A stretch of DNA of 64,000 bases, from positions 103,897,690 through 103,961,689 of the forward strand of contig OX457024.1 of NCBI GenBank assembly GCA_949752745.1, read 5' to 3'. Positions 12,189 through 28,871 of the stretch are shown one piece after another. This DNA comes from Protula sp. h YS-2021 (Eukaryota > Annelida > Polychaeta > Sabellida > Serpulidae). Numbering within the stretch: position 1 is the first letter of the stretch; each line of letters begins with the position of its first letter. The notes under the pieces were generated by a model. That model had not been told where the DNA came from and did no database searches. It saw nothing but the letters and a program-made list of their open reading frames with translations. Position numbers and translations under genes: made by a program.

Positions 12189-12205
12189 GACCCTAAAAAG
12201 CCACG

Positions 12206-13166: not shown

Positions 13167-13167
<1 letters not shown>

Positions 13168-13193
13168 GTCGACCATATACACAAGTAAAGTTC

Positions 13194-13378: not shown

Positions 13379-13386
13379 TATAAAAG
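13379..13386 (+). promoter_or_regulatory. TATA box for first left-arm gene
   Basis: TATAAAAGGAAGAGTGA here is the same promoter core as at the PolB promoter in the opposite terminus (26872-26888, reversed). Transcription would begin around 13405-13412, so the 5' leader of the gene starting at 13413 would be nearly absent, or the real start is one of the next in-frame Met codons. Confidence 0.65.
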
Positions 13387-13412
13387 GAAGAGTGACGAGA
13401 AAATACTTCACA

Positions 13413-13847
13413 ATGTCGGCATTACTTCTTGACAGATGTATGACTATGGATGACGTCTTCAAAGTGAACTATATTGACTATGTGTTTTCAAAGCTTCCTG
13501 CTTTTGAATCGGATTGGATGCTGCAAGTGAAGAATTTGCATATGCATTGGGAAGCTGTGGGAAAGGCTATTCCAAGAGATCGTTTCATCAGCTTGTTTCT
13601 ACATGAATGTGAAGAACTGCATTTACTATCAACTTACAACATTGATTTAGCATTTATCAACGCGAATACAATTTGGGCAACTGACCTCATGTTAGTTGTA
13701 GCTACTAGAATTATTCTACATTATGATGATGATGTTCCAAATAATGTATCAGACCTTGTTCGGTTCAACCATGGACGAGTTGAAGTGAATTCAAACGTTT
13801 GCAAGTTCTTTGAAAATAGAGCTGATTCAGCAGACAGTTGGGTATAA
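13413..13847 (+). CDS. Left-arm protein A, unknown function (element 1 only)
   Basis: A 144-residue acidic, alpha-helical looking protein with no recognised domain. The start at 13413 (MSALLLDRC) is the first ATG after the TATA box; Met10 and Met12 are alternatives. The pattern 'YID....KL', a Trp about 25 residues later, 'F..EC' and an Ala-rich last helix matches the product of the gene at 14600, so the two may be diverged paralogues. The stop codon lies within the TATA box of the next gene. Element 2 lacks this gene: its place is taken by an unrelated 354-residue protein. Codon use and position under a terminal promoter support a real gene expressed early or on its own. Confidence 0.65.
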   Translation: MSALLLDRCMTMDDVFKVNYIDYVFSKLPAFESDWMLQVKNLHMHWEAVGKAIPRDRFISLFLHECEELHLLSTYNIDLAFINANTIWATDLMLVVATRIILHYDDDVPNNVSDLVRFNHGRVEVNSNVCKFFENRADSADSWV

Positions 13848-13850
13848 AAG
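13843..13850 (+). promoter_or_regulatory. TATA box for the PC4-like/zinc protein gene
   Basis: TATAAAAG sits 85 bases before the ATG at 13928 and contains the stop codon (TAA, 13845-13847) of the upstream gene. The equivalent in element 2 is TATAAAAG at 56405-56412. Confidence 0.65.
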
Positions 13851-13927
13851 GGAGTGGACTCAGCAGAGTGAAGTCATTTCTCAGCAGACAGTTGGAGGGA
13901 GTGGATCATCAATACATCGTTGCAGCC

Positions 13928-14575
13928 ATGGAGAACAAGACAAGCAACGCAACGCAGCGCAGCAGCAGCTTTAAAATTAGTGCTAACTTAACCACTACTG
14001 TGGAGTATGGAGAATATGGGCCATTTCTACGCATCACACGTGGAGAGAGATGGTGTGCTTATTCACCATCTTTGTGGAAGATTGTGTGCCAGAGCTTGAA
14101 AAATTTACGCGACATTGGCTTCAAACTATACTTAACGCAAACGAAGTGGCTTGAAGTCATTTCATACTTGGATATGCGCTATGTGAGTTTTGTGCGCACG
14201 TCACGGTTTGAAGGGAAAGAATACACACATCACATCAACATGAATGATGGTGAATGGGAGACACTGCTTCAGGAGATGGACAACATCAACTCAGCCCTAT
14301 CACCATGTGAGGAATGTCATGACAAGAAAACGATCATCAAGCTGCAAAAGGATGGTCGGATGAAGGTGTCAAAGCTATCCAAGAAAAGGCTGACTGAAGT
14401 TCAGTTGGAGAACATGAACGTGCAAAATCAACTTGGACTTACCTGTGACTATTGCGGTGCTTGTGGATATGTGGAAGATTATCATTGCCACTGCCACAAG
14501 TATAATTGCAAGTTGTGTGAACCAAACAACTTCTGCGGCAAGTGTGGAGTACTTAAAGTCAGTGAAGCAAAGTAA
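13928..14575 (+). CDS. Double PC4-like domain protein with Cys/His-rich C-terminus
   Basis: A 215-residue protein. Residues about 15-61 and 66-120 look like two PC4/SUB1-like units: a few beta-strand-like segments followed by a helix opened by the pattern x-x-x-x-W-x-x-L (Trp50; 'NDGEW' with Trp110). PC4 folds bind single-stranded DNA and act as RNA polymerase II coactivators; that role is inferred here. Residues 127-206 hold a CxxC pair followed by a dense cluster (Cys173, 176, 179, 187, 189, 194, 197, 203, 206 with His188 and 190), fitting two or three zinc sites. The start was chosen at the ATG conserved with element 2 ('gcagccATGgag') downstream of a TATA box; the frame is open further 5' but without ATG. 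It is strongly conserved in element 2 (56453-57073). Confidence 0.8.
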   Translation: MENKTSNATQRSSSFKISANLTTTVEYGEYGPFLRITRGERWCAYSPSLWKIVCQSLKNLRDIGFKLYLTQTKWLEVISYLDMRYVSFVRTSRFEGKEYTHHINMNDGEWETLLQEMDNINSALSPCEECHDKKTIIKLQKDGRMKVSKLSKKRLTEVQLENMNVQNQLGLTCDYCGACGYVEDYHCHCHKYNCKLCEPNNFCGKCGVLKVSEAK

Positions 14576-14599
14576 AAGCACACAAGACACTGAAACAAG

Positions 14600-14926
14600 A
14601 TGGACGCATGTTTTAAAAATGCTTATATTGACTTGATGATTGCTAAACTTGCTTGCTATGGCACTCCAGACTATCAACTTTATCATTTGGATGCTTTTTG
14701 GGATGTTGTACATCATAGTCTTGATGTGATTGAACTGCATTCAAGATTTCTTGGAGAATGTCATAAAATTGGAATAGAAGAAGATCCTGACATTGACTTT
14801 GATTCTGCACTTTATTCTGCTCGTACTGATGTTGAAGTATATTTCACCGTAGTGGATCATTTGAGAGATTGTTGTAAAGAAGAAGAGGAAACCGAGCAGC
14901 TTTATCAGGTAACTTTAAAGATATAA
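14600..14926 (+). CDS. Left-arm protein C, unknown function
   Basis: A 108-residue acidic protein conserved at moderate level in element 2 (57138-57425), which argues for a real gene. It shows the pattern 'YID..IAKL', a Trp about 24 residues on, 'F.GEC' and a C-terminal acidic tail. It resembles the product of the gene at 13413 in this pattern. It lies 24 bases after the preceding stop. No catalytic motif, signal peptide or membrane segment is evident. Confidence 0.7.
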   Translation: MDACFKNAYIDLMIAKLACYGTPDYQLYHLDAFWDVVHHSLDVIELHSRFLGECHKIGIEEDPDIDFDSALYSARTDVEVYFTVVDHLRDCCKEEEETEQLYQVTLKI

Positions 14927-15394
14927 AAACCTTTTAATCATCTTTGTAACAACATAGTGAATTGATAACAATGTTTTTCTTACTAGCAAATTTAGTTTTA
15001 TGTGAGTGGTTTCAACGTAAACAAAGAAAGAACATGATAGAAGAGGCAGCAAATATATTAAAAGATATTTTATTACAGGAAGAAACCGACATGTCAGAAT
15101 AAAACAGCAGAAGCAAAGTCAACATGGAGAATCTTGTTGTGTGAGACTTGATGTGCAGACGTGTGAACATGGAGAAGTGTGTTAAGTGAACAGCAACTGG
15201 AAAAAAAAACTTGCTGAATTTGACAGACTTGTGCTGCATTGCCGGAGCAGCATAACCTGACAGACTTGTGCTGCATTGCCGGAGCAGCATAACTTGCTAA
15301 ACCTGACAGACTTGTGCTACATTGCCGGAGCAGCATAACTTGCTAAACCTGACAGACTTGTGCTGCATTGATTCAAGACTCACAAGACTGCATA
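14927..15394. repeat. Spacer with ~46-bp tandem repeats
   Basis: From about 15218 to 15370 a unit beginning TGACAGACTTGTGCTGCATT and carrying the hairpin TGCTGC..GCAGCA is repeated three times plus a partial copy, with one short unit. The corresponding interval in element 2 has no spacer at all (stop and start overlap as TAATG), so this is an insertion or expansion in element 1. Minus-strand open frames here are repeat artefacts. Confidence 0.8.
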
Positions 15395-15727
15395 ATGGCG
15401 GACATGACACTGAGACAATATATTGTGCAAAAAGCTTATTGTGAAGAAATGTTATCCGCTGTAAAAAAGTTTGCCTATTTAGTCTGTCCTGCTTGTCAAC
15501 ATGAAGAGTGTCAAGAACATACTTGTCATGCTGCATGTGTTTATACATATTGGAATGAAGCTAAATATTACATTCATTTAGATAAAGTGTTAGAGGATGC
15601 AAATCAACGTTGTGAGAAATATGGTGTAGATGTTATTACATTGGATGAACTCAGTCATTGGTTAATGTTCATTGAAGACCAATGGTCTCCAGTGATTCAT
15701 ACCATTGTATCCATACTTGATTTGTAA
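15395..15727 (+). CDS. Small Cys/His-rich protein D
   Basis: A 110-residue protein, highly conserved with element 2 (57425-57757). A Cys/His cluster at residues 31-48 (Cys31, 34, 39, 44, 48; His42, His45) is a probable zinc-binding site between predicted helices. The C-terminus ends in a hydrophobic helix (IHTIVSILDL). The start at ATGGCGGACATG matches the conserved start in element 2, where 'ATGACAGAC' overlaps the previous stop. No named family is recognised. It is the last gene before the integrase. Confidence 0.75.
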   Translation: MADMTLRQYIVQKAYCEEMLSAVKKFAYLVCPACQHEECQEHTCHAACVYTYWNEAKYYIHLDKVLEDANQRCEKYGVDVITLDELSHWLMFIEDQWSPVIHTIVSILDL

Positions 15728-15827
15728 AAAACTTGTTAGTTAAGTTACTATGTTAGTTAAGTGATGTTGGTTGAGTTATAAAATAAAAGCTGTTCTGTTG
15801 AGAAGGTGGTTTTCATTCGGTGTGACC
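15728..15827 (+). promoter_or_regulatory. Intergenic: AATAAA signal and possible TATA for integrase
   Basis: Contains 'gttagttaagt' repeats, an AATAAA at 15782-15787 and TATAAAATA at 15777-15785, about 50 bases before the integrase ATG. The matching interval in element 2 also carries ataaaataaaa. It probably ends the upstream transcript and begins the next one. Confidence 0.45.
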
Positions 15828-16883
15828 ATGTCGACGTGGAAAGACTACTTGACCAATATTTACTTCAAACCTGGACAGCCTGGAGCATTTGCTGGTCCTT
15901 ACAAACTGTATCACATCTTACGAAAACATAATCAACCAGTCACACATTCACAAGTGAAGAAATGGCTACAGGATCAAGATGCTTTCAGTTTACTCCAACC
16001 TGTAAAATACAGGTTCAAAAGACAACGTGTGATTACACGTGGCATTGATGATATGTGGGATATTGATTTGGCTGATATGGGAAACATAGCTCCCTATAAT
16101 GATAACATACGCTTTTTACTCATTGTCATTGATGTGTTTTCCAAATATGTCTGGGTACAGCCAATACCTAATAAATCACATACCAGCGTCATACAAGCTT
16201 TCCAAAAGATTTTTCATGACACACGACGAAGACCGCGAACTCTAAGGTCTGATAAAGGAACAGAATTTAAAAACAGATGGGTTAAAGCATTTTTGAAGAA
16301 AGAAGGCATTCATGCTTATACCACAAAGAATGAAACCAAAGCCAACTTTGCTGAAAGAGTCATTCGTACTCTGAAGGGAATGATGTATCGGTATTTTCTA
16401 CATAATCAAACTTACCGTTACTTAGACATTCTTCCAGACTTGGTGTACAATTACAACCATAGACCTCATGGTTCTCTTCCTAATAAATATGCTCCAGCCG
16501 AGATTCGTAAAGACAACGAATCAAAAGTGTGGAAGTATATGTATGTCGACAAACTGAAATTGAAACCGAAGAAGAAGAAGAAGTACAAATTTAACATTGG
16601 CGATCATGTTCGCATTTCCCACATTAAATATGTGTTTCAACGCGATTATCACATCAAATGGACGCAAGAAGTCTTCATTGTCACACATCGTTGTAAGAAG
16701 CAAGGAATACATTTGTATCGTGTGAAAGACTTTTTAGACGAAGATATTGATGGCCATTTCTATGAAGAAGAACTGCAGAAAGTGACCAAAGATATTGAAT
16801 CTATTTATAGAATTGAAAAAGTCTTGAAAACACGTAAAAGACGAGGAGGTGTGAAAGAATTATTTGTCAAGTGGTTAGGTTGA
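15828..16883 (+). CDS. INT: Polinton rve integrase, chromodomain truncated by a nonsense codon
   Basis: Retrovirus-type DDE integrase that inserts the linear element DNA and makes the 6-bp duplication. After an N-terminal helical domain ('VTHSQVKKWLQ') the rve core shows WDIDLADM (first Asp), LRSDKGTEF (second Asp) and NFAERVIRTLK (Glu). A basic linker (KPKKKKK) leads to a C-terminal chromodomain starting YRIEKVL. In element 2 this continues through KWLGWPKKFNSW to a 367-residue end. Here the Trp codon after KWLG is TGA (16881-16883), stopping at 351 residues and removing the end of the chromodomain. The frame beyond the stop remains intact to the ATPase, so the mutation looks recent. The start is at MSTWKDYL, as in element 2. 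Confidence 0.95.
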   Translation: MSTWKDYLTNIYFKPGQPGAFAGPYKLYHILRKHNQPVTHSQVKKWLQDQDAFSLLQPVKYRFKRQRVITRGIDDMWDIDLADMGNIAPYNDNIRFLLIVIDVFSKYVWVQPIPNKSHTSVIQAFQKIFHDTRRRPRTLRSDKGTEFKNRWVKAFLKKEGIHAYTTKNETKANFAERVIRTLKGMMYRYFLHNQTYRYLDILPDLVYNYNHRPHGSLPNKYAPAEIRKDNESKVWKYMYVDKLKLKPKKKKKYKFNIGDHVRISHIKYVFQRDYHIKWTQEVFIVTHRCKKQGIHLYRVKDFLDEDIDGHFYEEELQKVTKDIESIYRIEKVLKTRKRRGGVKELFVKWLG

Positions 16884-16927
16884 CCAAACAAGTTTAACAG
16901 TTGGGTGAAAGAAACAGACATTCAACA

Positions 16928-17587
16928 ATGAAGCATCCATTTACATGTTTGGTCTCTGGACCTACAGGCAGTGGCAAAACGTCTCTGGTGAAGGAAATTC
17001 TAGAACAAAAGTTGATTAAACCCTCTCCAAAAAGCATTTTATGGCTTTATGCAGCAGATCAGCCTTTGTACAAGGGAATGAAAAGCGTGGAATTTTACCA
17101 AGGCATTCCAGATGACATTGAAGAGCGTTTTAACCCGAAGAAACCAAACTTACTTATCATTGATGACTTAATGACCAAATGTCATAGTGATGAGCGTATG
17201 ACACGTCAGTTTAGTGTTGGCAGCAGTCATCAAAATCTAAGCATTATCTTTATTGTACATAATTTATTCCATCATGGGAAAGAGATGCGAAATATTAGTT
17301 TGAATACACATTATATCATTCTGTTTAAAAATCCGAGAGACAGTCAACAAATTAGTACATTGGCGCGGCAAATGTATCCTGGAAGATCTCAATTTCTCAT
17401 AGAAGCCTATCAAGATGCTACTAGCAAACCTCATGGTTATTTATTCATTGATTTAAAACCAAAGACAAATGATCAACTACGTATTCGTACAGGCATTTTA
17501 CCAAAAGATACACATTATGTCTATATTGATGAAGCAGTGTATGACCAAGAACCAACTCATTTGACCATTCGCAGTCAAGATGTCTAA
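16928..17587 (+). CDS. FtsK/HerA-type genome-packaging ATPase
   Basis: A 219-residue packaging ATPase that would pump DNA into the capsid. Walker A is GPTGSGKT (residues 11-18) and Walker B is LLIIDD (75-80). The downstream 'SIIFIVHNLF' strand and 'FKNPRDSQQISTLARQMYP' are typical of the Polinton/adintovirus branch of this family. The ATG at 16928 matches element 2, where it overlaps the integrase stop as ATGA. An upstream in-frame TTG is ignored. Its stop overlaps the next ATG by 8 bases. Confidence 0.95.
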   Translation: MKHPFTCLVSGPTGSGKTSLVKEILEQKLIKPSPKSILWLYAADQPLYKGMKSVEFYQGIPDDIEERFNPKKPNLLIIDDLMTKCHSDERMTRQFSVGSSHQNLSIIFIVHNLFHHGKEMRNISLNTHYIILFKNPRDSQQISTLARQMYPGRSQFLIEAYQDATSKPHGYLFIDLKPKTNDQLRIRTGILPKDTHYVYIDEAVYDQEPTHLTIRSQDV

Positions 17588-17903
17588 ACGTATTCGAGCG
17601 AACCAGCCGTTTCTTCATTTGCTTGCACGCAGTGGGCCTAAACGACGCAAATCCTTGCTACAGCAAGCTACAAAAGAGGAATTAACAAGCTTGTTTGAAA
17701 TTTGTTTGAATATATTGCAAGGACATTTACCCTTAAGCTCAAAACGGTTTAAGGAATTTAAACGTGAACATCATACGCTACGTACTCTAGCAGATAAGAA
17801 GATATCCCTTCGACGAAAAAAGAAGTTGATTAATCAGAAAGGATTCATTGGAGTTATTGCTAGATTGGCATTGCCCTTGTTAGCCAAACTACTGCTAAAA
17901 TGA
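17580..17903 (+). CDS. Conserved small basic Polinton protein
   Basis: A 107-residue, strongly basic protein. It has a helical region 'RKSLLQQATKEELTSLFEIC' followed by 'N.L.G.LPLS', a Lys/Arg-rich segment (residues 73-90) and a hydrophobic C-terminal helix ending LLAKLLLK. Proteins of this kind, with an 'E..xNxLxGxxxLs' centre and a basic then hydrophobic tail, recur in animal Polintons beside the ATPase, but I know of no proven function. The start overlaps the ATPase stop by 8 bases and the stop overlaps the next start (ATGA). The element 2 copy is nearly identical and keeps a Gly-Gly before the final helix, where this copy has one Gly. Confidence 0.85.
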   Translation: MSKRIRANQPFLHLLARSGPKRRKSLLQQATKEELTSLFEICLNILQGHLPLSSKRFKEFKREHHTLRTLADKKISLRRKKKLINQKGFIGVIARLALPLLAKLLLK

Positions 17904-18472
17904 AACATACGATGAAAATGGTCCTCATTCCTGAATATGAATATAAAATGTTGCTAGAAAAGAAAAATGATATCAAAACGAAAGTGAATACACTTTTACG
18001 TGAGAAACGAACACGTGAAAAGGCTATAGAAATGTCTCAACTTCTTGGTCGTCATTTACGAACAAGTCAGTCTAGGCAGCAAAAGCCCTCATCATCATCA
18101 TCATCACCTGAAAAGCCAGAAAAGTTATTTTTAAGTCATTTTCAACCTATCTATCATGGAAAAATAACACAACTTTTAGCCGAACTGAAGAAATATGGTA
18201 CGACATGGTCAGAGAAGAATGAACTTGTGTTGAAAACGGGCGATATTATAGCAAATTCCAACATGGTTGATTTGATGAAAGAAGCATTGGTGGCGACAAG
18301 AAGAAAAGAACGATCCATACCACCATATGGCTGGCATCCATTTATCCAGGAAATTGTAGATGCGAATATTCCAAAAACAATGTTTAATAAAAAGACCACT
18401 CGTGACGACATTACAACAGAAATGAAACAACGTCAACAAAGACAGTTTCCTGAAGGATGGGGAAATTTTTAA
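17900..18472 (+). CDS. Conserved Polinton protein with C-terminal 'GW..F' domain
   Basis: A 190-residue protein. The N-terminus MKMVLIPEYEY.ML is followed by a basic helix and a Ser/Gln-rich linker. A C-terminal globular segment carries 'KYGTTWSEKNELVLKTGDII.NSN.VDLMKEAL' and 'PPYGWHPFIQEIVDANIPK'. This arrangement is common to Polinton late genes, but its role is unknown to me; a DNA- or capsid-associated function is only a guess. Element 2 encodes a 197-residue homologue with a longer linker. Its last 16 bases overlap the start of the next gene. Confidence 0.8.
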   Translation: MKHTMKMVLIPEYEYKMLLEKKNDIKTKVNTLLREKRTREKAIEMSQLLGRHLRTSQSRQQKPSSSSSSPEKPEKLFLSHFQPIYHGKITQLLAELKKYGTTWSEKNELVLKTGDIIANSNMVDLMKEALVATRRKERSIPPYGWHPFIQEIVDANIPKTMFNKKTTRDDITTEMKQRQQRQFPEGWGNF

Positions 18473-18657
18473 TATGGTTGAAAGAGCAATGTTGTTGCCA
18501 AGACACAACTATTCCTGTAAAAATAAGATGTACAAGCGCGTGTTGTGAAGGAGAAATAAAAGACCATGTGAATGAGGATGAGATTTGGCATACTTGGTCG
18601 AATGGCGCGCGCTATCGTGAAGTATATAGACAACGTCAACGCACCTATACCATTTAG
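18457..18657 (+). CDS. Short Met-Gly, Cys-rich protein, possibly lipid-anchored
   Basis: A 66-residue protein starting MGKFLIWLKEQCCC. Element 2 has MGNFLTWIKELWCCCC followed by the shared motif TIPVKIRC.SACC.GE. Conservation is confined to the first ~35 residues; the tails differ completely. An N-terminal Met-Gly followed by a hydrophobic stretch and a Cys cluster fits N-myristoylation with palmitoylation. That would suit a membrane-associated late protein, but this is inference. It overlaps the previous gene by 16 bases in both elements, supporting a real gene. Confidence 0.7.
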   Translation: MGKFLIWLKEQCCCQDTTIPVKIRCTSACCEGEIKDHVNEDEIWHTWSNGARYREVYRQRQRTYTI

Positions 18658-18665
18658 TTCCCATC

Positions 18666-19424
18666 ATGGAGTCGACAAGCTTTTACATCACTTTGCCTAG
18701 CAATGCGAGTATGACCTATTATCCCAACAACAAGGCTTCGAATTATCAAATTCGTATGCCTCGAACCATCTATCTGAATGGAAAATATGAAGTGGCTTTA
18801 GCTGAAATTCAATATCCACATACATGGACAACGATGAGACAGGGCATGGACTACTCTATTCAGTATCGACAAGAACTATTCGATGATCCTATTCTTAGCA
18901 CTCTCGATATTCCTTATGGGTACTATAGAACCATACAAGAACTATGTGAGGCAGTCAATGAAGAAGCGACTAATGCTCTGAAACTTACAGAAGCTATTCG
19001 AATAAAGTATGATAAGATTAGACGACGTGTGTTTCTATTTCTCGATTATGGTTATGAAGTGTCCTTTTCCACTGGATTAGCTGAGATTTTAGGATTTATC
19101 CCAGATCAATGGTATACTGAAACATGTACAGCTGACCATAAAGCGGATGTGAAACAGGGGTTTTATACACTGTATGTGTATTGTAGCATTTGTGAACCAC
19201 AAGTTGTTGGTGATTATTATGTTCCGTTACTACGTTCTGTTGGCATACAAGGCCATGATGGAGATATTATCATGAAAACGTATGGCGAACCGCATTATGT
19301 TCCTGTAAACACATCCAAATTTGACATGATAGAAATGAATATTAAGGACGACACAGGCCATACTGTTCCATTTCAAACTGGAAAGGTGATCTGTAAACTT
19401 CATTTTCGACCAAAAGCATTATGA
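18666..19424 (+). CDS. Penton-like minor capsid protein (Polinton PX type)
   Basis: A 252-residue protein expected to form the capsid vertices as a single jelly roll. The N-terminal signature FYITLPSNASM.YYPNN..SNYQIRMPR.I.LNGKYEVALAEIQYP is characteristic of Polinton minor capsid proteins. Further conserved strands include 'FSTGLAEILGF' and 'YVYCSICEPQVVGDYYVPLLR'. Its length fits the family. It lies directly upstream of the core-like and major capsid genes, and its stop overlaps the next start as ATGA. The element 2 copy is 253 residues and very similar. Confidence 0.9.
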   Translation: MESTSFYITLPSNASMTYYPNNKASNYQIRMPRTIYLNGKYEVALAEIQYPHTWTTMRQGMDYSIQYRQELFDDPILSTLDIPYGYYRTIQELCEAVNEEATNALKLTEAIRIKYDKIRRRVFLFLDYGYEVSFSTGLAEILGFIPDQWYTETCTADHKADVKQGFYTLYVYCSICEPQVVGDYYVPLLRSVGIQGHDGDIIMKTYGEPHYVPVNTSKFDMIEMNIKDDTGHTVPFQTGKVICKLHFRPKAL

Positions 19425-19762
19425 AAGCTTATACACACGATCCGTCTGCATATCGCAACCATTTTCTTCGTCAAGTGGGCGGGGAATTACCAGGATTCAA
19501 AGGAGCGCGAATCCAATATGGCGATGGTATTGGTTCAATACTGGGATCATTGGCTCGCAAAGCTATTCCACTACTTAAGGCTGGGGCTAAGATCGTTGCG
19601 CCACATCTTAAGAAGGCTGCAAAGAATGTCGCGAAAGATGTGACGGGCCGAGTAGCAGAACGTGTGTTTGGTGAACAAAAGCGCATGCAACCGACGAAAC
19701 GTGCCAGAAGACGAAAAACAGCCAGACGGATAACATCAAAATATCGCAAAGATATCTTTTGA
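19421..19762 (+). CDS. Basic core-like virion protein
   Basis: A 113-residue protein with 'GGELPGFKGARIQYGDGIGSILGSL', an amphipathic Ala/Lys-rich helix (residues about 44-78) and a very basic C-terminus rich in Arg and Lys (KRARRRKTARR). Such Gly-rich then basic proteins sit between the penton and major capsid genes of animal Polintons and resemble adenovirus core or membrane-active precursors in composition. The exact equivalence is uncertain. The Gly-Gly and Gly-Ala positions could be cleavage sites of the element's protease. It overlaps the penton gene by 4 bases. Confidence 0.75.
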   Translation: MKAYTHDPSAYRNHFLRQVGGELPGFKGARIQYGDGIGSILGSLARKAIPLLKAGAKIVAPHLKKAAKNVAKDVTGRVAERVFGEQKRMQPTKRARRRKTARRITSKYRKDIF

Positions 19763-19766
19763 AATC

Positions 19767-21140
19767 ATGTCTCTCATTCATAATCATTCGTGTGAATGTA
19801 GTCTTTCTCCATTGGAATGGTTTCACGTACCACCAACGCAAACTGCTGTAGAGAAAAGTTATAATGTTGACTATCAACCACTTACAAGCATTAGAGAAGG
19901 CGCTCCAATAGAATTCTACATTCCTGCGAGTACAGAAGAATATCTGGATTTAAAGAACAGCAAACTTCATATTGTATGTCGCATTCTAAAGGCTGATGGA
20001 ACAGAGTGTGGCGCAGATGATAATGTCTCTTGCATCAATGATGTGTTTAATGGGTTATGGTCTAATATTGAATTGTTTCTGAATGATCGTTTGGTTTCGC
20101 ATAGCAACAATACTCATGGTTATACCAGCATTATCTCTCATCTCATCCATGATTCGGAAGAAAGTCTACATTCTGAGCGCTCTATGCGTCTCATGTACAA
20201 GGATACTGCTGGGTCAATGAATAGTCATGAGGTGAAAAGACCTAATCATGAACAATATGTATCCGGGTTTCATGTCAATGCTGACGGTGGTGACTTGGCT
20301 GAGCAAGGAAACAATGGTTTACATCATCGTTATTTGCATACTCGTCTTAGCCGTGATGTTTTGCTCGCAGGTGGTTTAAGGGTAGATTTGTTTGAGCAGG
20401 ATCGTTATCTTCCGAATGGCATCAGTTTGAAATTGCGTTTCCATAGACAAAAAGATGACTATGTATTGATGGCTGCAAATAATACCTATAAGGTAGAAGT
20501 GAAAGAGGCATTTTTAACCATTCGCAAAGTGAGGGTGAGTCCAGGTATTCAGTTAGGACATACAGATGCATTGATGAAAAGTCCTGCCAAGATCATCATC
20601 ACTAGAAAAGAATGTAAAGTCTTGGCTATTCCAGCAGGATTTCAGTCTTTTGTGAAAGATAACATCTTTTTGGGTCAATTACCAAATCGTATTGTTATTG
20701 GTCTGGTTCATAATGAAGCTTTTGGTGGATCAGTATTGAGGAATCCATATGATTTCAAACATTTTGATCTGGACTATATGCAACTGTACACGGATGGTGA
20801 ACCAGTTCTATCCAAACCTCTCAAGCTTGACATTACACAGAACAAATACCTGAACGCTTTTGAAACGCTTTACAAATCGTTTGATCGGTTGAATGGTGAG
20901 AAAAGTTCCATTATAAAACGGGAAGATTGGCCTAGAGGTTATGCTTTATTTTCGTTTGACTTAACACCGGATTATGATGGTGATGATCATTTCCCCCTGA
21001 TCAAGCATGGGAATTTGCGGCTAGAAATGAACTTTGCTACGGCTTTGCAACCTACAATCAATGTCATTGTCTATGCTGAATTTGACAACATTATTGAGAT
21101 CAGTGCAAATCGCAGCATCCAATTCGACTACCAGTCATGA
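19767..21140 (+). CDS. Major capsid protein, double jelly-roll (hexon-like, PY type)
   Basis: A 457-residue protein forming the capsid shell. The N-terminus SPLEWFHVPPTQTAVEKSYNVDYQPL, then 'GAPIEFYIPASTEEYLDLKNSKLHI' and 'NGLWSNIELFLNDRLVSHSNNTHGY', are hallmarks of the Polinton/adintovirus major capsid family. The C-terminus 'NFATALQPTINVIVYAEFDN..EI' is the last strand of the second jelly roll. The same length is kept in element 2. It starts 4 bases after the previous stop and its TGA overlaps the protease ATG. Confidence 0.92.
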   Translation: MSLIHNHSCECSLSPLEWFHVPPTQTAVEKSYNVDYQPLTSIREGAPIEFYIPASTEEYLDLKNSKLHIVCRILKADGTECGADDNVSCINDVFNGLWSNIELFLNDRLVSHSNNTHGYTSIISHLIHDSEESLHSERSMRLMYKDTAGSMNSHEVKRPNHEQYVSGFHVNADGGDLAEQGNNGLHHRYLHTRLSRDVLLAGGLRVDLFEQDRYLPNGISLKLRFHRQKDDYVLMAANNTYKVEVKEAFLTIRKVRVSPGIQLGHTDALMKSPAKIIITRKECKVLAIPAGFQSFVKDNIFLGQLPNRIVIGLVHNEAFGGSVLRNPYDFKHFDLDYMQLYTDGEPVLSKPLKLDITQNKYLNAFETLYKSFDRLNGEKSSIIKREDWPRGYALFSFDLTPDYDGDDHFPLIKHGNLRLEMNFATALQPTINVIVYAEFDNIIEISANRSIQFDYQS

Positions 21141-21574
21141 ACACGAAGCAGATTGATGCCATCCTAAGCCATGATGTCATGACCAAAGACTTGTTTCAAG
21201 GCGTGTTTGCCATGGACCAGTTACCATCTTTACAACGCGGCGCCTATGTGATCAACACAGACGATCAAGATGAACCAGGAGAACATTGGGTGGCAGTGTA
21301 TTATGATAAAGACCCTGTGGAATATTTTGACTCTTATGGACTGTTCCCTCTCGATGATCGTTTAGACATGTTTTTAAGAAATGACTATATGTATAATTCC
21401 ATCTCATTACAAACGCCGATATCATCGTCATGTGGTTTTTATTGTGTATATTATATATTACATAGAGCTCGAGGTCAGAGTATGTTTGATATTGTGAATA
21501 TATTAAAAAGAAAGGATGGTGATTTTATTGTAAAGGATTTTGTATATAGACATTATAAACCATTGTTTTATTAA
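21137..21574 (+). CDS. Adenain-like cysteine protease
   Basis: A 145-residue Ulp1/adenain-family maturation protease. The visible catalytic set is His50 in GEHWVAVY, Asp65 in YFDSYG, Gln92 in LQTP as oxyanion-hole residue, and Cys99 in SSSCGFYC. It would process capsid or core precursors during virion assembly. It is the last gene of the rightward unit; 'gttgttgt..ttagttaagt' repeats and an AATAAA (21646-21651) follow. The element 2 copy keeps all four residues. Confidence 0.93.
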   Translation: MNTKQIDAILSHDVMTKDLFQGVFAMDQLPSLQRGAYVINTDDQDEPGEHWVAVYYDKDPVEYFDSYGLFPLDDRLDMFLRNDYMYNSISLQTPISSSCGFYCVYYILHRARGQSMFDIVNILKRKDGDFIVKDFVYRHYKPLFY

Positions 21575-21831
21575 TGTTGTTGTTGTTATATTAGTTAAGT
21601 TGTAGTTAAGTTGTTGTTGTTATATTAGTTAAGTTGTTGTTGTTAAATAAAACAAACCAAGTTTTCAAACAGTCTTGTTTATTGTGTTCTATTTACAAAG
21701 TTTACAAACACTATTTACAAACTATTAACTACAAACTTTTATTTACACTATTTACAAACTTTTATTTACACTATTTACATTATTTACAAACTCTTAACTA
21801 CAAAGTCTATTTACACTATTTACAAACTTTT
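21575..21831. terminator. Convergent 3' region with poly(A) signals
   Basis: An AATAAA at 21646-21651 serves the plus-strand unit. A TTTATT-rich stretch with repeated 'tatttacaaac' words provides several AATAAA on the minus strand for the opposing genes. The rightward and leftward units end here. The repeated words resemble the forkhead-like repeats at 27.4-27.9 kb in composition. Confidence 0.6.
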
Positions 21832-22203
21832 TTATTTACAAACACAGTCATTTTTCAATACATTCATGAATGAATACCATTCATTAGAATCTAAATTGAT
21901 ATAGGTATCATAGACATTACATCCATGTTTGTAAATGCTATGAAAGCTCACATAACACACATCACCAAACTTTATCACTTTCACAGTAACATGTTCAGAC
22001 AGTTTCAGTTCATATCCTTCTTCATTTATGTCCATCACACGCATAGGTTGTGGCAGCTCAATGGATTTGGTACCCCGCATAAGTTGTATTCCATACTCTT
22101 TGAATTCAAGCGTTAGGTTCTTTCCAATCCAATGCTTGTAACAGCGCGTTCCATTCCACTGTGCTGAGGGTGATGATGTCGTAGTGTTCTGTAAGCTCGT
22201 CAT
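21832..22203 (-). CDS. Small PC4-like-fold protein (last of minus-strand cluster)
   Basis: A 123-residue frame from the first ATG. The C-terminal half runs 'YELKLSEHVTVKVI', a strand pair, then 'TYINLDSNEWYSFMNVL', matching the strand-loop-'xxxEWxxLxxxL' pattern of PC4-like units elsewhere in the element. The start is uncertain: the first ATG makes a 98-base overlap with the upstream gene, much longer than the usual 4-16. Met42 (codon at 22078-22080) would leave 25 bases between genes, or the two frames may be one gene split by a frameshift. The homologue in element 2 is partly visible at 63881-64000. Confidence 0.6.
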   Translation of the reverse strand: MTSLQNTTTSSPSAQWNGTRCYKHWIGKNLTLEFKEYGIQLMRGTKSIELPQPMRVMDINEEGYELKLSEHVTVKVIKFGDVCYVSFHSIYKHGCNVYDTYINLDSNEWYSFMNVLKNDCVCK

Positions 22204-22456
22204 ATTGACGAAATTGTACAAACACGTCTAGACCGTTCTCAGTCACACGCACTTCTAATTCATTTGAGACTACTAGGAGAAAGCCAGGTATTCTCAACTT
22301 GTCTAGATGATCCTTCAACACGGATTGGTCATCAAGCGATAGGATGAGATACTGTCCAAAATGTCGTAGCACAATATCATCACATAAGTTTCTCATGTAT
22401 GAGAATCCATATGTCATGGGTTCATAATCCAACACATAGTCTTCCATCTCGTCCAT
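22106..22456 (-). CDS. PC4-like protein of the minus-strand cluster
   Basis: A 116-residue acidic protein. Residues about 72-112 show 'LEVRVTENGLDVFVQF' strands followed by 'DIITLSTVEWNALLQAL', the same strand-helix signature as PC4/SUB1 C-terminal domains. An N-terminal part ('YLILSLDDQSVLKDHLDKL') may be a second degenerate unit. It lies 5 bases from the next gene upstream. The role is unknown; single-stranded DNA or transcription-complex binding is inferred from the fold guess only. Confidence 0.65.
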   Translation of the reverse strand: MDEMEDYVLDYEPMTYGFSYMRNLCDDIVLRHFGQYLILSLDDQSVLKDHLDKLRIPGFLLVVSNELEVRVTENGLDVFVQFRQYDELTEHYDIITLSTVEWNALLQALDWKEPNA

Positions 22457-22461
22457 GTATT

Positions 22462-22835
22462 TTATACTCGGATGATGTCGAACAGCGGATGTTGTATCGC
22501 TTCTAGGAATCGTAAGACTGCGCGCCAGTTCTTGATATCAAAGAAGATCAACTGTGCATAGGGTGTATCTGGCACAACTCCCTTATAATCCTTTGGATAA
22601 TCCTGTAAAAGATTTCTACAGAATGTCACACGTATCTTAGAATCATATTCAGCCACCGCACTTCCAGTTTATTTTCAAGTCTGCGTTTAAACCCAGGTTC
22701 AAGCGGTATGTTTTTAAAGTCTTTCCACACTTCAGGTTTAAACCGATAAGCAGAACTTCTCCGAGAACCAATCATCACTTCATTCCTCTCATTAACTTTA
22801 AGGTAAACACCATCGTCCAACATGAGTGCATTCAT
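22462..22835 (-). pseudogene. Two-unit PC4-like gene broken by a frameshift
   Basis: An ATG-initiated 69-residue frame (from 22835) carries 'GVYLKVNERNEVMIG', then 'SAYRFKPEVWKDFKNI'. A second 64-residue frame (22462-22656) overlaps its end in another phase, has no ATG of its own, and carries 'RVTFCRNL' and 'LIFFDIKNWRAVLRFLEAI'. Each piece ends in the PC4-like helix signature, so together they look like a two-unit protein like that at 13928, split by an indel near 22626-22656. It could still express the first unit alone. Confidence 0.55.
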
Positions 22836-22848
22836 GATTGTTACCTTG

Positions 22849-23205
22849 TTATGACTTGTCGTCTTGTCTGCGAAGCCTTTTATCCACTTCTTTCACCTGC
22901 TTCTTCAGCATTTTCCATTCTGTAATTGTCAGCAAAATTCCCTTTTTCGTTGGACGGTTTTTTCCAGTCCCCTCATCTCTGAGGTATTTGCGAATGTTTA
23001 TGACACCTTCATTACTTTGTTTCATAATCTTGATATACTTTCCATTGCCTAGAGAAAGCATTCCATCCCACGACTGTGGTGTTGGTGCCGTCGCCGTCGC
23101 CGTCTCCACTTTTAATTTCTTGATGGTAGTGTCAGGATGTTTCACATTCATGTCTTTCACTGTATCAGCAAGAGTATCCATATCCGTTGTTGCAGATCTT
23201 TTCAT
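22849..23205 (-). CDS. PC4/SUB1-like transcription coactivator (p15 domain)
   Basis: A 118-residue protein. After a Lys/Thr/Ala-rich N-terminus (1-48), residues about 49-112 form a complete PC4 C-terminal domain: a GNGKYIKI strand, 'VINIRKYLRDEG', the basic turn 'RPTKKGILLT' and 'ITEWKMLKKQVKEVDKRL' with Trp97. This is the pattern of human PC4 ('IREY...KPGRKGISL...QW..LK'). PC4 dimers bind single-stranded DNA and stimulate RNA polymerase II transcription. In a protein-primed element it could coat displaced strands or activate element genes; that is inference. It is the clearest member of the family and allows recognition of its weaker relatives. Confidence 0.82.
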   Translation of the reverse strand: MKRSATTDMDTLADTVKDMNVKHPDTTIKKLKVETATATAPTPQSWDGMLSLGNGKYIKIMKQSNEGVINIRKYLRDEGTGKNRPTKKGILLTITEWKMLKKQVKEVDKRLRRQDDKS

Positions 23206-23344
23206 GTTGACGCTTCAGTGTTCACACTTCAACTGACTCTAAAGTTGAAGTGTCTCCCCCTTATATACTGTAATGCCCATGCGCCAAAGTGGAATAGCCA
23301 TCACTCATCACATATCGCTTGTCATCAAAGGGAGAGAGAGCCAC
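23206..23344 (-). promoter_or_regulatory. Intergenic with TATA-like box upstream of PC4-like cluster
   Basis: On the minus strand, TATATAAGGGGGAGAC (reverse of the plus-strand text at about 23255-23270) lies about 60 bases before the ATG at 23205. It is a plausible separate promoter for the PC4-like cluster, just downstream of the PolB stop. Confidence 0.5.
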
Positions 23345-26300
23345 TTACCTCAACTTCTCCGAGAAAATCTGGTGGTCATGACTTCGAATGATATGCCCTG
23401 TGGTTATCGTTTGCGTTTGGTTGAACAAACTGTCTCTATACTGCTGATGTTTCATCAGTCTTTGACACGCGCGAGTGATGCCTTTAACCGTACGTTTTTC
23501 TTTCCCACCATACATCATACTATACATTTTGGGCCGAAGTCCAACAAACTCTTCAATGGGAATGCCCACCGTCTCATCTTTCATTTTCCCAAGCACTTTC
23601 TTGTTCACGTTGGAATGTAGGAAATGATCTGGGGGATAGTCACTTGTGTCGAACAAGTCGGCATCTTCCTGCATGTCTTTGTAGATATCTTCCGTTTCTA
23701 TGTCATAACATAGACTGTCGGTGTCGCTGAACAAGAGTTTGGCGTTGGGATACTTGGTCATGATGTAGTTGTAATGAAAGTGGAACATGAGCACCTTGCT
23801 GAGGTCGAGAATGGTGAAACCAACTTGAATGGGTTTATCCAGAAGCAGATCCACTTTGCGCAAATTTACCGCGGTCAAATCTTCGTTGAAAATTCTAAAT
23901 TTGTGGAAGGAAGGTTTGGCCACAAGTTTCTTGAACCGCTTTTCCTGGTGAACGAGTTTCACATTTATGCGCTTTCTCACATTTTCCATGGTTTTGCCAA
24001 ACACCGAGTTGTTCATCAGTTTGAAAAAGTCTTTCTCAAACGGGTTCTTGGCCAACTTTCTCTTTTCCGTGTTTAAGGAGATGTATTTTGCCAACCATTT
24101 GCTCTGTGCAAACATGATGGCACGGTGCTTCTGACTATGTTTTGACAATTCTCCCACTTTCACACATTTCCGTTCCGGAGCCACTGGGTAGTGATTATGA
24201 TGATCATGGATTGAATATGGGTATTCCAAATCCACTTCTAAAATGTACCCAATCTCATCATCTTCATCCACATCCATAAAGTCAATGGATTCTGGCTCGC
24301 TCACCCACATAAATCCACTTTCCGGCATGCTTTGCGACATGGCCCAGCCATACAAGTTGTTTGCATCCAGGTACGTCAAGTAGTTGGTTGGTTTCGTGGG
24401 ATCGTAATCTGCTACGTAGGGGTTATTTGCTTTCGCATACTTGTGTGTGATGACAGATATTCCTCCACGTAGACCTTGTTCAACCATTTGATACATGTCA
24501 ATGTCGTTGATCAATTCCAATTTCACCTTTGTCGCTTTCAACATAGCATCCCAGGACAGTCCTGGCGCTGTATAGTAGTGAGCTTGATCTAATTCATACG
24601 TGTTGAGACATACGTGACGAAAGTTTTCAAACACGTCAGCCAGCAGCAACACATCTGATTTCAGGTACAAGTCATGGTATTCACCAAATGTAGTACACTG
24701 GAATGTCTCCCACACCTTCTGCGCATGCGCATAATCCTCATCGCTAATGTCTTCTTCACTGAGCAGACTGTAAAACTTGTCCTTGGACGGCAGTTGTGTT
24801 TCAGCAAACTTGGATGGCTCATCCACGTAATCATAAGGGTACACTTCCTTTCTCAACAGTAACTCTTGTTGGTCACTATCGTGAATGTTTGACGTCATGT
24901 GATAAAAGTTGTCTTTCCCTTCTGCTGCCAGGTTGGAGACCAACTTCTGTAGAGAAGTACTCATGAACTGATAACTGTCTGTAAATTTCAGATTGCTCAT
25001 GGTGAATGCAATATATTTCTCAACGGTGTTGGGAATGACTGTAATCCTTTCGTTTTTGAACTTTCCAATTTCTTCCATGATCAAATGGCTGTCATAGCCT
25101 CGTAAATTGTGGAAAAAGACAGGAATGATGAAAGAATCTTCAACATCCTGCTGATCTTTTCGAAATCGGAATTGCAAATTGCATTGACTATGTGCAGCTC
25201 CGCGGTATTTGCCATTGATATGGTCATGATCTCTCACATGATCTGCTCCTAGAGGCTCATGACAAATGTAACAATCTGTGGCGTTCTTATAATCCTCTTC
25301 ATCTTCATGAGTCATCACCATTTTCTTTTTCTGTTGTAAACCATGCACAATACGATCACGCTCAGTCACCATATGGTCTAAAAAGACTTTCACAGCATTA
25401 TCTCCTCGATACACGACTGGAGCACGTGTATCATACTGGCTCACAACCACATAGGCAAAGCTGTTTGGACGATGATGCTGATACCTGTCTCCTTCATGCT
25501 TTTTCGTGAAACATTCAAAGTCGGCATAAATCACAAAAGGGACTCGCTGTTGTTTGGCTACATTCTTGAACTTGATGAAGGGTTCCTTGGGGAATGATAA
25601 ACGTTGTGCGCCATGCTTGCCACACACTTCACGATGCTTGTCTAACAGATCTTGTCGCATAAACCCGTGAAGACAGTTGAAACAATAAAAAGCTGCATGC
25701 TGATGGTTTGATCGATAAGCCATCAGTCTGCTGAAATTCTTGATGAGGCAGTAATGTCTTGTCTTGTCATTGCTAATCAAAAGCAAATTGATTTCTCTCG
25801 CGCTGTTGGCGCTGTTGGTGCTGGTGTTTCGACTGAGTTGTATGGGAACAACGACATCATGTTCATATCCAAACACGTTAATGGACACATCATTCTCCTT
25901 TTCAAACTTTGGAATGTCTGTTATCGGTGTTGGAAATGTCATGCCTTCTACCTTCAATTCGTTCTCAAATGCTTTGTATTGATGCACACACTGTGGGTTT
26001 CTATCTGTTGAAGGGTGAAGGTGAGCCAATACAGACCATAAGAAACATTTGTTGTCTTTATTCTGAATGTTTAACACACCTCCTGTATTCTTTACTTTCT
26101 TCGGTAGTGGGATAAAACTGCTCGCTTCCAGTGGCGCTGACGTAGCTGTATGCACTTCAATGAATAATATGTTATCCAACACCCAGCCTGAGCCTTGTCG
26201 CTCATGTTCATCAAACCTGGTAAACAATTCTTTGTAGGCTTCTGGCAAGTCCTTCTCAATATCTGTTGGATTGTATGCTGCATATGTCGGACTACTGATG

Positions 26301-26821
26301 AAGGCATTATCCACTTGTTCTACCATCACGCCTTCAACATTTGGTGTCATTTTCTTGAAGCGTGCATGTACGACAATGTACCATTTCATGCCACGGTTTA
26401 ACGTCTCTAGCAAATGTCTCTTAATCCGGTTCTCTTGTTGTCGCATTTCGAGTAGCAAATCCGATCCATCTTCAGGCTCAAACCGTCTTTCCTGTGCGTT
26501 TTCACCAAGACTCACTCTTCTGCCTCTGCCTACTTGTCCTGTCTCTTTCTTTCTTTGTTCTTCATGAGACACATTTTCCATCTCAGCACATGCATGCGTC
26601 TCAAATGCATCCAAAGATGGAAATATTTTAATACATTCACCGCAGAGGACTGGATCAGGTCTTTCAACATCATCTTGTAAGGTCTTTCGTCTCTTGACTT
26701 CAATCTGCTCAACAAGCTCTTCACGAGCACGTTTCAACCTAGCTGGTTTACATCTATGTGTCACGAACACTTCCAGAGATGGAAATGTCACATCACAATC
26801 ATGACAGTAGACTGTTGCCAT
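23345..26821 (-). CDS. POLB: Protein-primed family B DNA polymerase
   Basis: A 1158-residue pPolB that replicates the linear element from its termini. Near the N-terminus are two C2HC-like fingers (Cys6/9-His22-Cys24; Cys60/63-His76-Cys78). Residues about 250-365 ('NKCFLWSVLAHLHP' to 'RHYCLIKN') match the region of Polinton polymerases compared with OTU-like proteases. A third finger lies at Cys380-Cys400. Exo motifs: YADFE (Asp434, Glu436), NLRGYDSHL (Asp577), YLKSDVLLLADVF (Asp723, Asp729). An HNH/endonuclease VII-like insert (CYICHEPL..DHVRDHDH, 517-547) interrupts the exo domain. Polymerase motif A is YLDANNLYGWAM (Asp819), B is KLMNNSVFGKTMEN, C is SDTDS (Asp1033, Asp1035), then KMY (1098-1100). 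The frame is open 5' of the chosen ATG but lacks another ATG. Confidence 0.96.
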   Translation of the reverse strand: MATVYCHDCDVTFPSLEVFVTHRCKPARLKRAREELVEQIEVKRRKTLQDDVERPDPVLCGECIKIFPSLDAFETHACAEMENVSHEEQRKKETGQVGRGRRVSLGENAQERRFEPEDGSDLLLEMRQQENRIKRHLLETLNRGMKWYIVVHARFKKMTPNVEGVMVEQVDNAFISSPTYAAYNPTDIEKDLPEAYKELFTRFDEHERQGSGWVLDNILFIEVHTATSAPLEASSFIPLPKKVKNTGGVLNIQNKDNKCFLWSVLAHLHPSTDRNPQCVHQYKAFENELKVEGMTFPTPITDIPKFEKENDVSINVFGYEHDVVVPIQLSRNTSTNSANSAREINLLLISNDKTRHYCLIKNFSRLMAYRSNHQHAAFYCFNCLHGFMRQDLLDKHREVCGKHGAQRLSFPKEPFIKFKNVAKQQRVPFVIYADFECFTKKHEGDRYQHHRPNSFAYVVVSQYDTRAPVVYRGDNAVKVFLDHMVTERDRIVHGLQQKKKMVMTHEDEEDYKNATDCYICHEPLGADHVRDHDHINGKYRGAAHSQCNLQFRFRKDQQDVEDSFIIPVFFHNLRGYDSHLIMEEIGKFKNERITVIPNTVEKYIAFTMSNLKFTDSYQFMSTSLQKLVSNLAAEGKDNFYHMTSNIHDSDQQELLLRKEVYPYDYVDEPSKFAETQLPSKDKFYSLLSEEDISDEDYAHAQKVWETFQCTTFGEYHDLYLKSDVLLLADVFENFRHVCLNTYELDQAHYYTAPGLSWDAMLKATKVKLELINDIDMYQMVEQGLRGGISVITHKYAKANNPYVADYDPTKPTNYLTYLDANNLYGWAMSQSMPESGFMWVSEPESIDFMDVDEDDEIGYILEVDLEYPYSIHDHHNHYPVAPERKCVKVGELSKHSQKHRAIMFAQSKWLAKYISLNTEKRKLAKNPFEKDFFKLMNNSVFGKTMENVRKRINVKLVHQEKRFKKLVAKPSFHKFRIFNEDLTAVNLRKVDLLLDKPIQVGFTILDLSKVLMFHFHYNYIMTKYPNAKLLFSDTDSLCYDIETEDIYKDMQEDADLFDTSDYPPDHFLHSNVNKKVLGKMKDETVGIPIEEFVGLRPKMYSMMYGGKEKRTVKGITRACQRLMKHQQYRDSLFNQTQTITTGHIIRSHDHQIFSEKLR

Positions 26822-26880
26822 CGTTGTTGTTTCTTCAACTGCTAGAACTGAAATGAAGTAAAATATACGTTTCACTCTTC

Positions 26881-26888
26881 CTTTTATA
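26881..26888 (-). promoter_or_regulatory. TATA box of the PolB promoter
   Basis: On the minus strand TATAAAAGGAAGAGTGA begins here, 67 bases before the PolB ATG. The same 17-base core drives the left-arm gene at 13379. The promoter is part of the terminal inverted repeat and therefore present at both ends. Confidence 0.75.
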
Positions 26889-27019
26889 CCACTTCAATGG
26901 TGTGTTAACTCAGCAGAATGTATCACTAGTTGACTAGTTGACATGTTTCACTCATGCTTTTATGCTACTTCCATGTAATCAAAATATGGTGTGTAACTTG
27001 TTCAAAAATTGTTCAAAAA

Positions 27020-27032
27020 TGCTGACTCAGCA
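27020..27032. promoter_or_regulatory. T-MARE palindrome, right terminus
   Basis: TGCTGACTCAGCA, the exact reverse complement of the site at 13194-13206, about 130 bases upstream of the PolB TATA box. A degenerate second copy lies at about 26905-26917. Confidence 0.55.
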
Positions 27033-27139
27033 GAATTTTACTTGTGTATATGAATATCTCACTTACAGTTGTACTGCTGCACTGCTACACAGCAGAGACA
27101 TCTAGCGGTGAAGTTAAATGGTCTGCCAAATGGTATTCA

Positions 27140-27360
27140 TCCGCGAAGAAGCACTATAATGGTGAAATTTTCAGTCAACTATAACGAAAGTTATAACGAA
27201 AGTTATCACAATTTTAAGTTAAAATGGCGGTAAAAATGCATACAGCCAGCTGCGCAAATAGCCTATGACTACTTTATAACAAAACTTTACATAAAACTGA
27301 ATCAAATGGTGAAATTTTCATATAAATCGACCAAGTATAACGAAAGGTATTGTTTTACAA
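27140..27360. repeat. Copy of the ~163-bp repeat family shared with the 5-kb element
   Basis: Contains 'ctgaatcaaa.ggtgaaattttca', 'aaatcgaccaa.tataacgaaag', 'aaaatggcgg' and 'gcatacagcc', the same words as the tandem units in the arms of the element at 35524-40526 and in the MITE at 34573-35137. It has no ORF. Confidence 0.75.
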
Positions 27361-27386
27361 AGTTTCAATTAAGCAAATAACCAAAG

Positions 27387-27906
27387 TTTGTTTACAAAGT
27401 TTGTTTACAAAGTTTGTTTATAAAGTTTGTTTACAAATTTTCAATTATATAAATAAGTCAAGTTTGTTTTCAAAGTTTGCTTACAAATTTTGCTTATAAA
27501 GTTTGTTTATAAAGTTTGTTTACAAAGTTTGTTTACAAAGTTTGTTTACAAAGTTTGTTTACAAATTTTGTTTATAAAATTTGTTTACAAAGTTTGTTTA
27601 CAAATTTTATTTATAAAGTTTGTTTATAAAGTTTGTTTACAAAGTTTATTTATAAAGTTTGTTTATAAAGTTTGTTTACAAAGTTTGTTTACAAAGTTTC
27701 AATTATGCAAATAACTAAAGTTTGTTTACACAGTTTGTTTACAAAGTTTGTTTACAAAGTTTGTTTACAAAGTTTGTTTACAAAGTTTCAATTATGCAAA
27801 TAACTAAAGTTTGTTTACACAGTTTGTTTACAAAGTTTGTTTACAAAGTTTCAATTATGCAAATAACTAAAGTTTGTTTACAAAGTTTGTTTACAAAGTT
27901 CACTTT
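27387..27906. repeat. 12-bp tandem array, TTGTTTACAAAG
   Basis: The unit AGTTTGTTTACA is repeated with small changes for about 520 bp. Around 22 units contain exact TTGTTTAC, the FOXO/DAF-16 binding element. The Phe/Val/Lys/Cys open frames are repeat translation. It lies only in the right terminus of element 1. Confidence 0.9.
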
Positions 27907-28084
27907 TTATTTATAAAGTTTCAATAAACACTTACCGAAATAGTTGTCACTGGATGTCATCCCTGGATCTGATGTGATCCAATTGCTTCCTTGCTCCACT
28001 CACCGAAATGACTGTCACTGCTGGATGCTCATCCCTTATTTACCCCTCTGATGGAACTGAAGCTGACTTGACAGAATGTTGCTC

Positions 28085-28170
28085 GCCTAGGGGGGGGGGG
28101 GTCGGTACATAGTATGTCCTAGGGAGAGGGGGTTGGTACATAGTATGTCCTGGGGGGGGGGGGGGGGGGT
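28085..28170. repeat. Poly-G boxes with 'ggtacatagtatgtcct' words
   Basis: GGTACATAGTATGTCCT occurs twice next to G runs of up to about 18. The same box occurs in both arms of the 5-kb element (35830-35885; 40195-40255), linking the two elements by descent or recombination. Confidence 0.75.
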
Positions 28171-28515
28171 CGGTCGACCCAAAAAATGAAAAATGTTCAG
28201 AATCGTCTGAAACGGATAAATATGCAAAAATTACAATTTCGAGGGGGGGGGGGGGTCGGTCGACCCAAAAAAATGAAAAATGTTCAGAATCGTCTGAAAC
28301 GGATAAATATGCAAAAATCACAATTTCGAGGGGGGGGGGGGGTCGGTCGACCCAAAAAATGAAAAATGTTCAGAATCGTCTGAAACGGATAAATATGCAA
28401 AAATTACAATTTCGAGGGGGGGGGGGTCGGTCGACCCAAAAAATGAAAAATGTTCAGAATCGTCTGAAACGGATAAATATGCAAAAATCACAATTTCGAG
28501 GGGGGGGGGTCGTGG
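28135..28515. repeat. Four inverted ~86-bp poly-G units
   Basis: Reverse-complement copies of the unit that makes the 11-copy array at 12206-13166, again separated by G runs of 9-18. Confidence 0.95.
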
Positions 28516-28871
28516 CTTTTTAGGGTCTGTTGCCATGGTTACACTGATTGACAGGTGGAGTTCGTTGGCTTCATGATGATTGACTCGGCCAACACTATCA
28601 AGCAACTTTCGCTCCAGACTTTCGCTCCAGACTTTCGCTCCAGACAGTATGACGTCATCATGACGTCATTATCACGTCATGGATGGCCGCGCTTATCCTA
28701 ACGCTTATCATGACGTCACTTCCGCTCCAGACAACACTTCCGGTCCAGACAGCACTTCCGGTCCAGGCAACACTTCCGGTCCAGACAACACTTCCGGTCC
28801 AGACGCTATGACGTCACTTCCAGACAGTATGACGTCATAAAGTGTGGTGGAACCGGCGTTTTCACCCTACT

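Follow-up and report, generated by a model that had tools for sequence, protein, structure and literature searches.

The 64,000-nucleotide stretch of Protula sp. h YS-2021 DNA analysed here (the window; contig OX457024.1, positions 103,897,690 to 103,961,689 of the forward strand) contains a Polinton/Maverick element, Polinton 1 (11863-28871), which encodes one PC4 protein together with a second family of small proteins that are PC4-like in their predicted fold. Each element carries one PC4 gene and four two-repeat genes, which correspond to up to nine PC4-like units. Five of these units are well supported: the PC4 protein, both halves of the protein encoded at 13928-14575 and the second halves of the 22106-22456 and 21832-22203 products. 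A preliminary description had counted about seven units in one element; the multiplicity stands, but the proteins at 13928 and 56453, which it counted together, belong to different elements. We propose that the set may well be the element's own equipment for binding single-stranded DNA.

The PC4 protein and the two-repeat family

The product of 22849-23205 (minus strand, 118 residues) had been described as carrying a PC4 signature, and this was confirmed. It matches the family model PF02229 with an expectation value (E) of 3.7e-9 and 36.4 bits, against a cut-off of 25, and the PC4 chains 6ycs (E 1.6e-7), 4usg (6.1e-7) and 1pcf (8.7e-7) of the PDB. Judged by these matches, the gene encodes a true PC4 domain and is the sole PC4/SUB1 family member of the set. 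The net charge of the protein is +11, and four PC4 types span +9 to +14. The contact residues R70, R86, R100 and K101 of human PC4 correspond to K, R, K and K, and the basic contact residues 86, 100 and 101 are kept as R or K. A TATA-like box, read from the sequence (23261-23267, minus strand), lies about 55 bases ahead of the PC4 start. A similar box is present in Polinton 2, a second, related element at the right end of the window that runs past the window's end.

A second family comprises the neighbouring genes together with the proteins at 13928 and 56453; according to the models it is PC4-like in fold, and it lies outside the PC4 family model. The PC4-like pattern previously ascribed to the neighbours and to both halves of the two larger proteins is borne out by fold models and by profile alignment with hhalign, but a PF02229 scan (E up to 10) of the 13838, 56420, 22106 and 21832 products and of the gene 4 pieces gave no PC4 match. 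The AlphaFold model of the 13928-14575 protein (plus strand) contains two beta-beta-beta-beta-alpha repeats in one chain, the first encoded at 13961-14098 (model residues 12-57) and the second at 14123-14296 (model residues 66-123). For gene 3 (22106-22456, minus strand) the model is similar but in part weaker, and two repeats are tentatively assigned to it. The structure predictions called for in the preliminary description gave PC4-like folds for these two proteins and not unrelated ones, but the closest solved folds are Pur-alpha repeats I-II, followed by MRP/Whirly and only then by PC4/MoSub1. The counterpart of the 13928 protein in Polinton 2 (56453-57073, plus strand) is 81% identical over 206 codons. 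The 13928 protein has a Cys/His-rich tail (14444-14545, plus strand) with the motifs CxxC, CHCH, CxxC and CxxC; its Cys/His columns are invariant in four rows, one of which is the relative P0001 described below. The tail is possibly zinc-binding, and no convincing relative of it was found in the PDB (best E 0.39).

Comparison of the PC4 profile with that of the second halves of the two-repeat family by hhalign gave E 5e-5 over 58 columns. The first-half profile gave E 2e-4 over 17 columns only and, in the other direction, 9e-5 over 38 columns. In control alignments against PC4, 11 other Polinton protein sets (one with masked stops) gave E 0.098-0.69, and reversed alignments gave 0.23-0.58. On this profile evidence the PC4 likeness of the halves exceeds chance. 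The values of the 11 other sets led us to reject the idea that all small Polinton genes are PC4-like. A five-row two-repeat profile searched against the PDB placed MoSub1 in rows 1-3 with E 0.084-0.3, whereas the nine-row profile listed no PC4 chain there, which speaks against the sequence link. The sequence link from the two-repeat family to PC4 is suggestive, and the claim is carried by the predicted fold. The first and second halves of the two-repeat proteins matched each other only with E 0.022 and 0.0031 in the two directions, so that an internal duplication is claimed from the model.

The 21832-22203 product (gene 2, minus strand), the frame of which is open to 22227 and overlaps gene 3, matched the L009 protein with E 7e-17 and the 13838-14575 product with E 6e-8, and by sequence it is clearly paralogous to the 13928 type. 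When the 22106 gene was left out of the profile, a search of 1761 frames still found its Polinton 2 counterpart with E 4.5e-9 and the window gene itself with E 5e-4. Genes 2 and 3 are both open frames, as had been listed, but the segment 22462-22835 (374 bases), listed as one gene frame, comprises in the window copy two overlapping pieces of gene 4 in different frames, 22626-22835 and 22462-22668 (both minus strand). The second piece is a probable second PC4-like repeat, with a weak hhalign match to the second-half profile (E 0.0018; best control 0.0098). Gene 4 lies in one frame in all 11 of the other family copies fetched; in locus L035, where the sequence examined stops short of PC4, the best match begins at residue 5. 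Elsewhere among the other cluster copies, gene 3 is split in L038 and PC4 is partial in L044. Of the four genes, two are assigned the two-repeat architecture by models, that of gene 3 being the more tentative, and one by homology; for gene 4 it is probable. A PHROGs scan of four set members gave no useful match.

Layout, copies and selection

Polinton 1 is identified as a Polinton/Maverick by its inverted ends, target duplication, integrase, ATPase and adenovirus-type protease. The 6-base duplication ATCTAT flanks it on both sides, and the terminal motif and inverted repeats are present. The integrase core (rve) scores 42.9 bits, the packaging ATPase exceeds the cut-offs of both the Adeno_IVa2 and Pox_A32 models, and the protease (Peptidase_C5, 20.6 bits) falls just under its cut-off of 21.3. 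The gene at 23345-26875 (minus strand), which we take to encode the protein-primed DNA polymerase, lies immediately upstream of the PC4 cluster and in the same orientation. The four cluster genes are consecutive; 13 and 5 bases separate two of the neighbouring pairs, and the third pair overlaps. In Polinton 2 the cluster begins within the window with the end of gene 2 (63884-64000, minus strand; profile match E 7.5e-9) and continues beyond it; read in locus L046, its order is the same, gene 2, gene 3, gene 4 and PC4, and it again adjoins the polymerase downstream on the same strand.

The genome (863 Mb, 218 contigs) contains the set in high copy number. Searches with the 13838-14575 and 22849-23205 proteins each gave at least 150 matches, at 97-100% and 96-100% identity, and 147 and 144 of the 150 listed, respectively, are free of stops. 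The PC4 family search also gave at least 150 matches, and all 150 listed are over the cut-off. Among these listed matches are a second Polinton family (family 2; loci L009 and L010) with a 132-residue PC4, and PC4s of 191 residues in shorter elements that have inverted repeats and carry a C2H2 gene (L011-L014). In family 2, the genes for a 218-residue two-repeat protein and for PC4 precede the integrase on the plus strand; another two-repeat gene directly follows the polymerase, in the orientation of the latter. In the relic loci L005, L008 and L002, gene 3 fragments stand beside a 191-type PC4, and L005 also has gene 2 fragments.

Purifying selection was found on the set. Between Polintons 1 and 2 the ratio of nonsynonymous to synonymous substitution rates (dN/dS, NG86) is 0.24 for PC4, 0.26 for the 13928 type, and 0.34 and 0.40 for genes 2 and 3, both computed outside their overlap; for comparison, the capsid protein gives 0.13 and the integrase 0.05. 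These ranges exclude comparisons in which dS was saturated, namely the gene at 14600 and both family 2 comparisons.

Outside this genome, single-sequence searches of a large protein set found no relatives. Of 1031 candidates searched with the nine-row alignment, a single one, P0001 (40% identical, from a 1435-base contig), had an E of 0.01 or better; it is the one protein found outside this genome. Of five scans of viral contigs, two with the capsid protein and one each with the two-repeat family and PC4 gave no match; the fifth, with the polymerase, matched the contig L048, whose polymerase is 38% identical. The same cluster occurs in Polinton 2 and in further family copies; the set was not seen in the part of L048 that was read.

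Role of the set

The polymerase type of Polintons replicates DNA by protein-primed strand displacement, which leaves long single strands. The set would be the element's own single-strand-binding set, mainly for this replication, a proposal that we regard as evenly poised. The PC4 protein would by analogy work as a homodimer, and each of the four paralogous products would, as in Pur-alpha and Whirly, combine two PC4-like repeats in a single chain. The strand that the protein-primed polymerase displaces would be bound by PC4 and probably also by the 13928 type. The gene 3 product, being acidic, would more probably pair with or regulate other members than bind DNA. We infer single-strand binding, replication as the main task and a division of labour rather than a uniform coat, the last because the stacking aromatics of PC4 are lost and the gene 3 product is acidic. 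PC4, PURA and WHY2 are reported to bind DNA and to be able to unwind or melt it (PMC4350104, PMC7990775). Also in favour of the proposal are the PC4 domain, the nearest folds of the two models, the hhalign values beside their controls, the position of the cluster downstream of the polymerase, the purifying selection, and the positive charge and basic contacts of the PC4 proteins.

Several observations weigh against this proposal. The base-stacking aromatics F77 and W89 are replaced by Q and L in the 22849-23205 protein, and the PC4s of family 2, of the 191-residue type and of L005 have Y at 77 and I at 89. In human PC4, alanine at either position abolishes single-stranded DNA binding, according to PMC4350104. 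The host-type PC4 exon in locus L001 keeps F (77) and Y (89); of the six PC4 sequences of the genome compared by residue, one, a split exon, resembles the host's own gene. The gene 3 product is acidic, with net charges of -15 (the 22106 product) and -11, and the other two-repeat proteins are near neutral. The dN/dS of gene 4 is 0.66 (Polinton 1 versus 2, with gene 4 taken from another copy), and the family 2 PC4 gene does not adjoin the polymerase. Of the 17,398 bases of L048, 15,693 were read, and no match of five profiles to them was better than E 0.12. With regard to the fold, both models were built from four sequences and have a mean pLDDT of 54 and 69, and no Foldseek match of the two-repeat models to the PDB reached E 0.001.

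The main rival is a role in transcription, either in promoter opening for host RNA polymerase II or in the switching of early and late genes. PC4/Sub1 is a known RNA polymerase II cofactor (PMC4350104), and both elements have a TATA-like box ahead of the PC4 gene. However, the closest folds of the two-repeat family are those of general single-strand binders, the cluster adjoins the polymerase, and no transcription gene was noticed in the element, in which no systematic search for one was made. On balance a transcriptional role is possible but rather doubtful. A role against the host, in which the proteins would hide or sequester single-stranded DNA or RNA, or in the case of gene 3 mimic DNA, and so blunt defence, would fit the presence of several paralogues, one of them strongly acidic, and the low conservation of genes 3 and 2, whose 73% and 71% between the two Polintons are the lowest values in the set. 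We consider it unlikely, as purifying selection acts on all measured members and nothing ties them to a host target. That the two-repeat proteins are not PC4-like at all, their likeness being a modelling artefact or a common beta-sheet arrangement, is very improbable in view of the hhalign values beside their controls, even with models of this confidence.

If the set serves single-strand binding as proposed, its members are concrete candidates for the single-strand-binding proteins of Polintons; to our knowledge no such protein has been assigned in described Polintons. More speculatively, animal Polintons could have evolved a toolkit for single-stranded DNA from the PC4-like fold, with a PC4 homodimer, several in-chain pseudo-dimers, one zinc-type tail and one acidic partner; present in very many copies per genome, these elements could also have given rise to the PC4 gene expansions of bivalves. 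Such expansion, from 2 to 18 genes in the species listed, was read as host adaptation in a bay scallop study (PMC9223095), in the available part of which the word 'transposon' does not occur. In view of the number of PC4 family matches in the present genome, and of the single host-like sequence among the six compared by residue, PC4 families that look 'expanded' in animal genomes may consist of cargo of mobile elements.

Neighbouring features and comparison with known systems

The names of the polymerase and of the jelly-roll capsid proteins of Polinton 1 are presumptive: no model of the family libraries searched named either, so they were assigned from known motifs and gene order; an NCBIfam scan of the polymerase and two capsid candidates likewise gave no name. 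Compared with the Polinton 2 and family 2 proteins, the window polymerase is missing one run of about 45 conserved residues as well as their conserved C-terminal tail, so that this copy looks damaged. The polymerase proteins contain an Endonuclease VII-like stretch, at about residues 530-568 in the window, which matches PF02945 below the cut-off in all three cases (E 6.1e-5 in L047, 1.8e-3 in the window and 1.1e-3 in L048); the window polymerase also matches phrog_423 (E 3.8e-5). Within the terminal repeats of Polinton 1 (12114-13164 and its match at the right end) there are arrays of tandem units of 83-89 bases, which can also be read as long frames of repetitive sequence. The small proteins at 14600-14926 and 57138-57425, which occupy the same place in the two Polintons, are only 34% identical, against 71-94% for the other genes compared, a divergence that suggests fast change or replacement.

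An inverted-repeat element of 5.0 kb at 35524-40526 has AGTAGT/ACTACT ends, and its arms contain tandem repeats of 163 bases. The inner part resembles the C2H2 gene of L012 (84%), and the relatives of the element (L011-L014) also carry a 191-residue PC4. No matching target duplication was found at this copy. The end motif is reported for vertebrate Mavericks (PMC8097293), and the element may be derived from a Maverick by shortening.

No report of a multi-paralogue PC4-like set in Polintons was found in the open-access literature, an absence that weighs little since subscription papers lay mostly outside the search. Nothing there linked Polinton with PC4 or adintovirus with single-stranded DNA binding; the combinations Maverick with PC4 (judged by title) and viral MOSUB gave only off-topic or unrelated papers, and PC4 is mentioned nowhere in the texts of PMC11071296, PMC11071308, PMC8363768, PMC4028283 and PMC8097293. 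The top viral structure match of the 13928 protein is MOSUB of the Bos-associated insect adintovirus (A0A5H3CT48; E 1.4e-4, 123 columns, 12% identity), and adintoviruses are relatives of Polintons according to PMC8363768. The name MOSUB of this adintovirus protein shows that PC4-like proteins were already known from this virus group; the multi-paralogue set may be new.

Among known systems, PC4/Sub1/MoSub1 (PF02229) resembles the 22849-23205 protein in the family match and in the basic contacts, and differs from it at positions 77 and 89; the other genes of the set have no family match. The T5 PC4 homologue (4bg7) is a single-repeat phage protein and not a sequence relative found here. By the title of that entry it is implicated in recombination-dependent replication, which counts in favour of the replication role. 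According to PMC7990775, proteins of the PC4-like fold class hold no other domain type; a protein that combines such a fold with a Cys/His-rich tail would depart from this rule. Pur-alpha (PURA repeats I-II) provides the nearest fold, with 9-16% identity in structure alignments and no Pfam PurA match listed, and differs from the 13928 type in the Cys/His-rich tail. Other near folds of the two-repeat family, at low identity, are Whirly (WHY1-3) of plant organelles and MRP1/MRP2 of trypanosome organelles. Adenovirus DBP and phi29 p5, which coat displaced single strands in protein-primed replication, have other folds, and the set would resemble them in role only.
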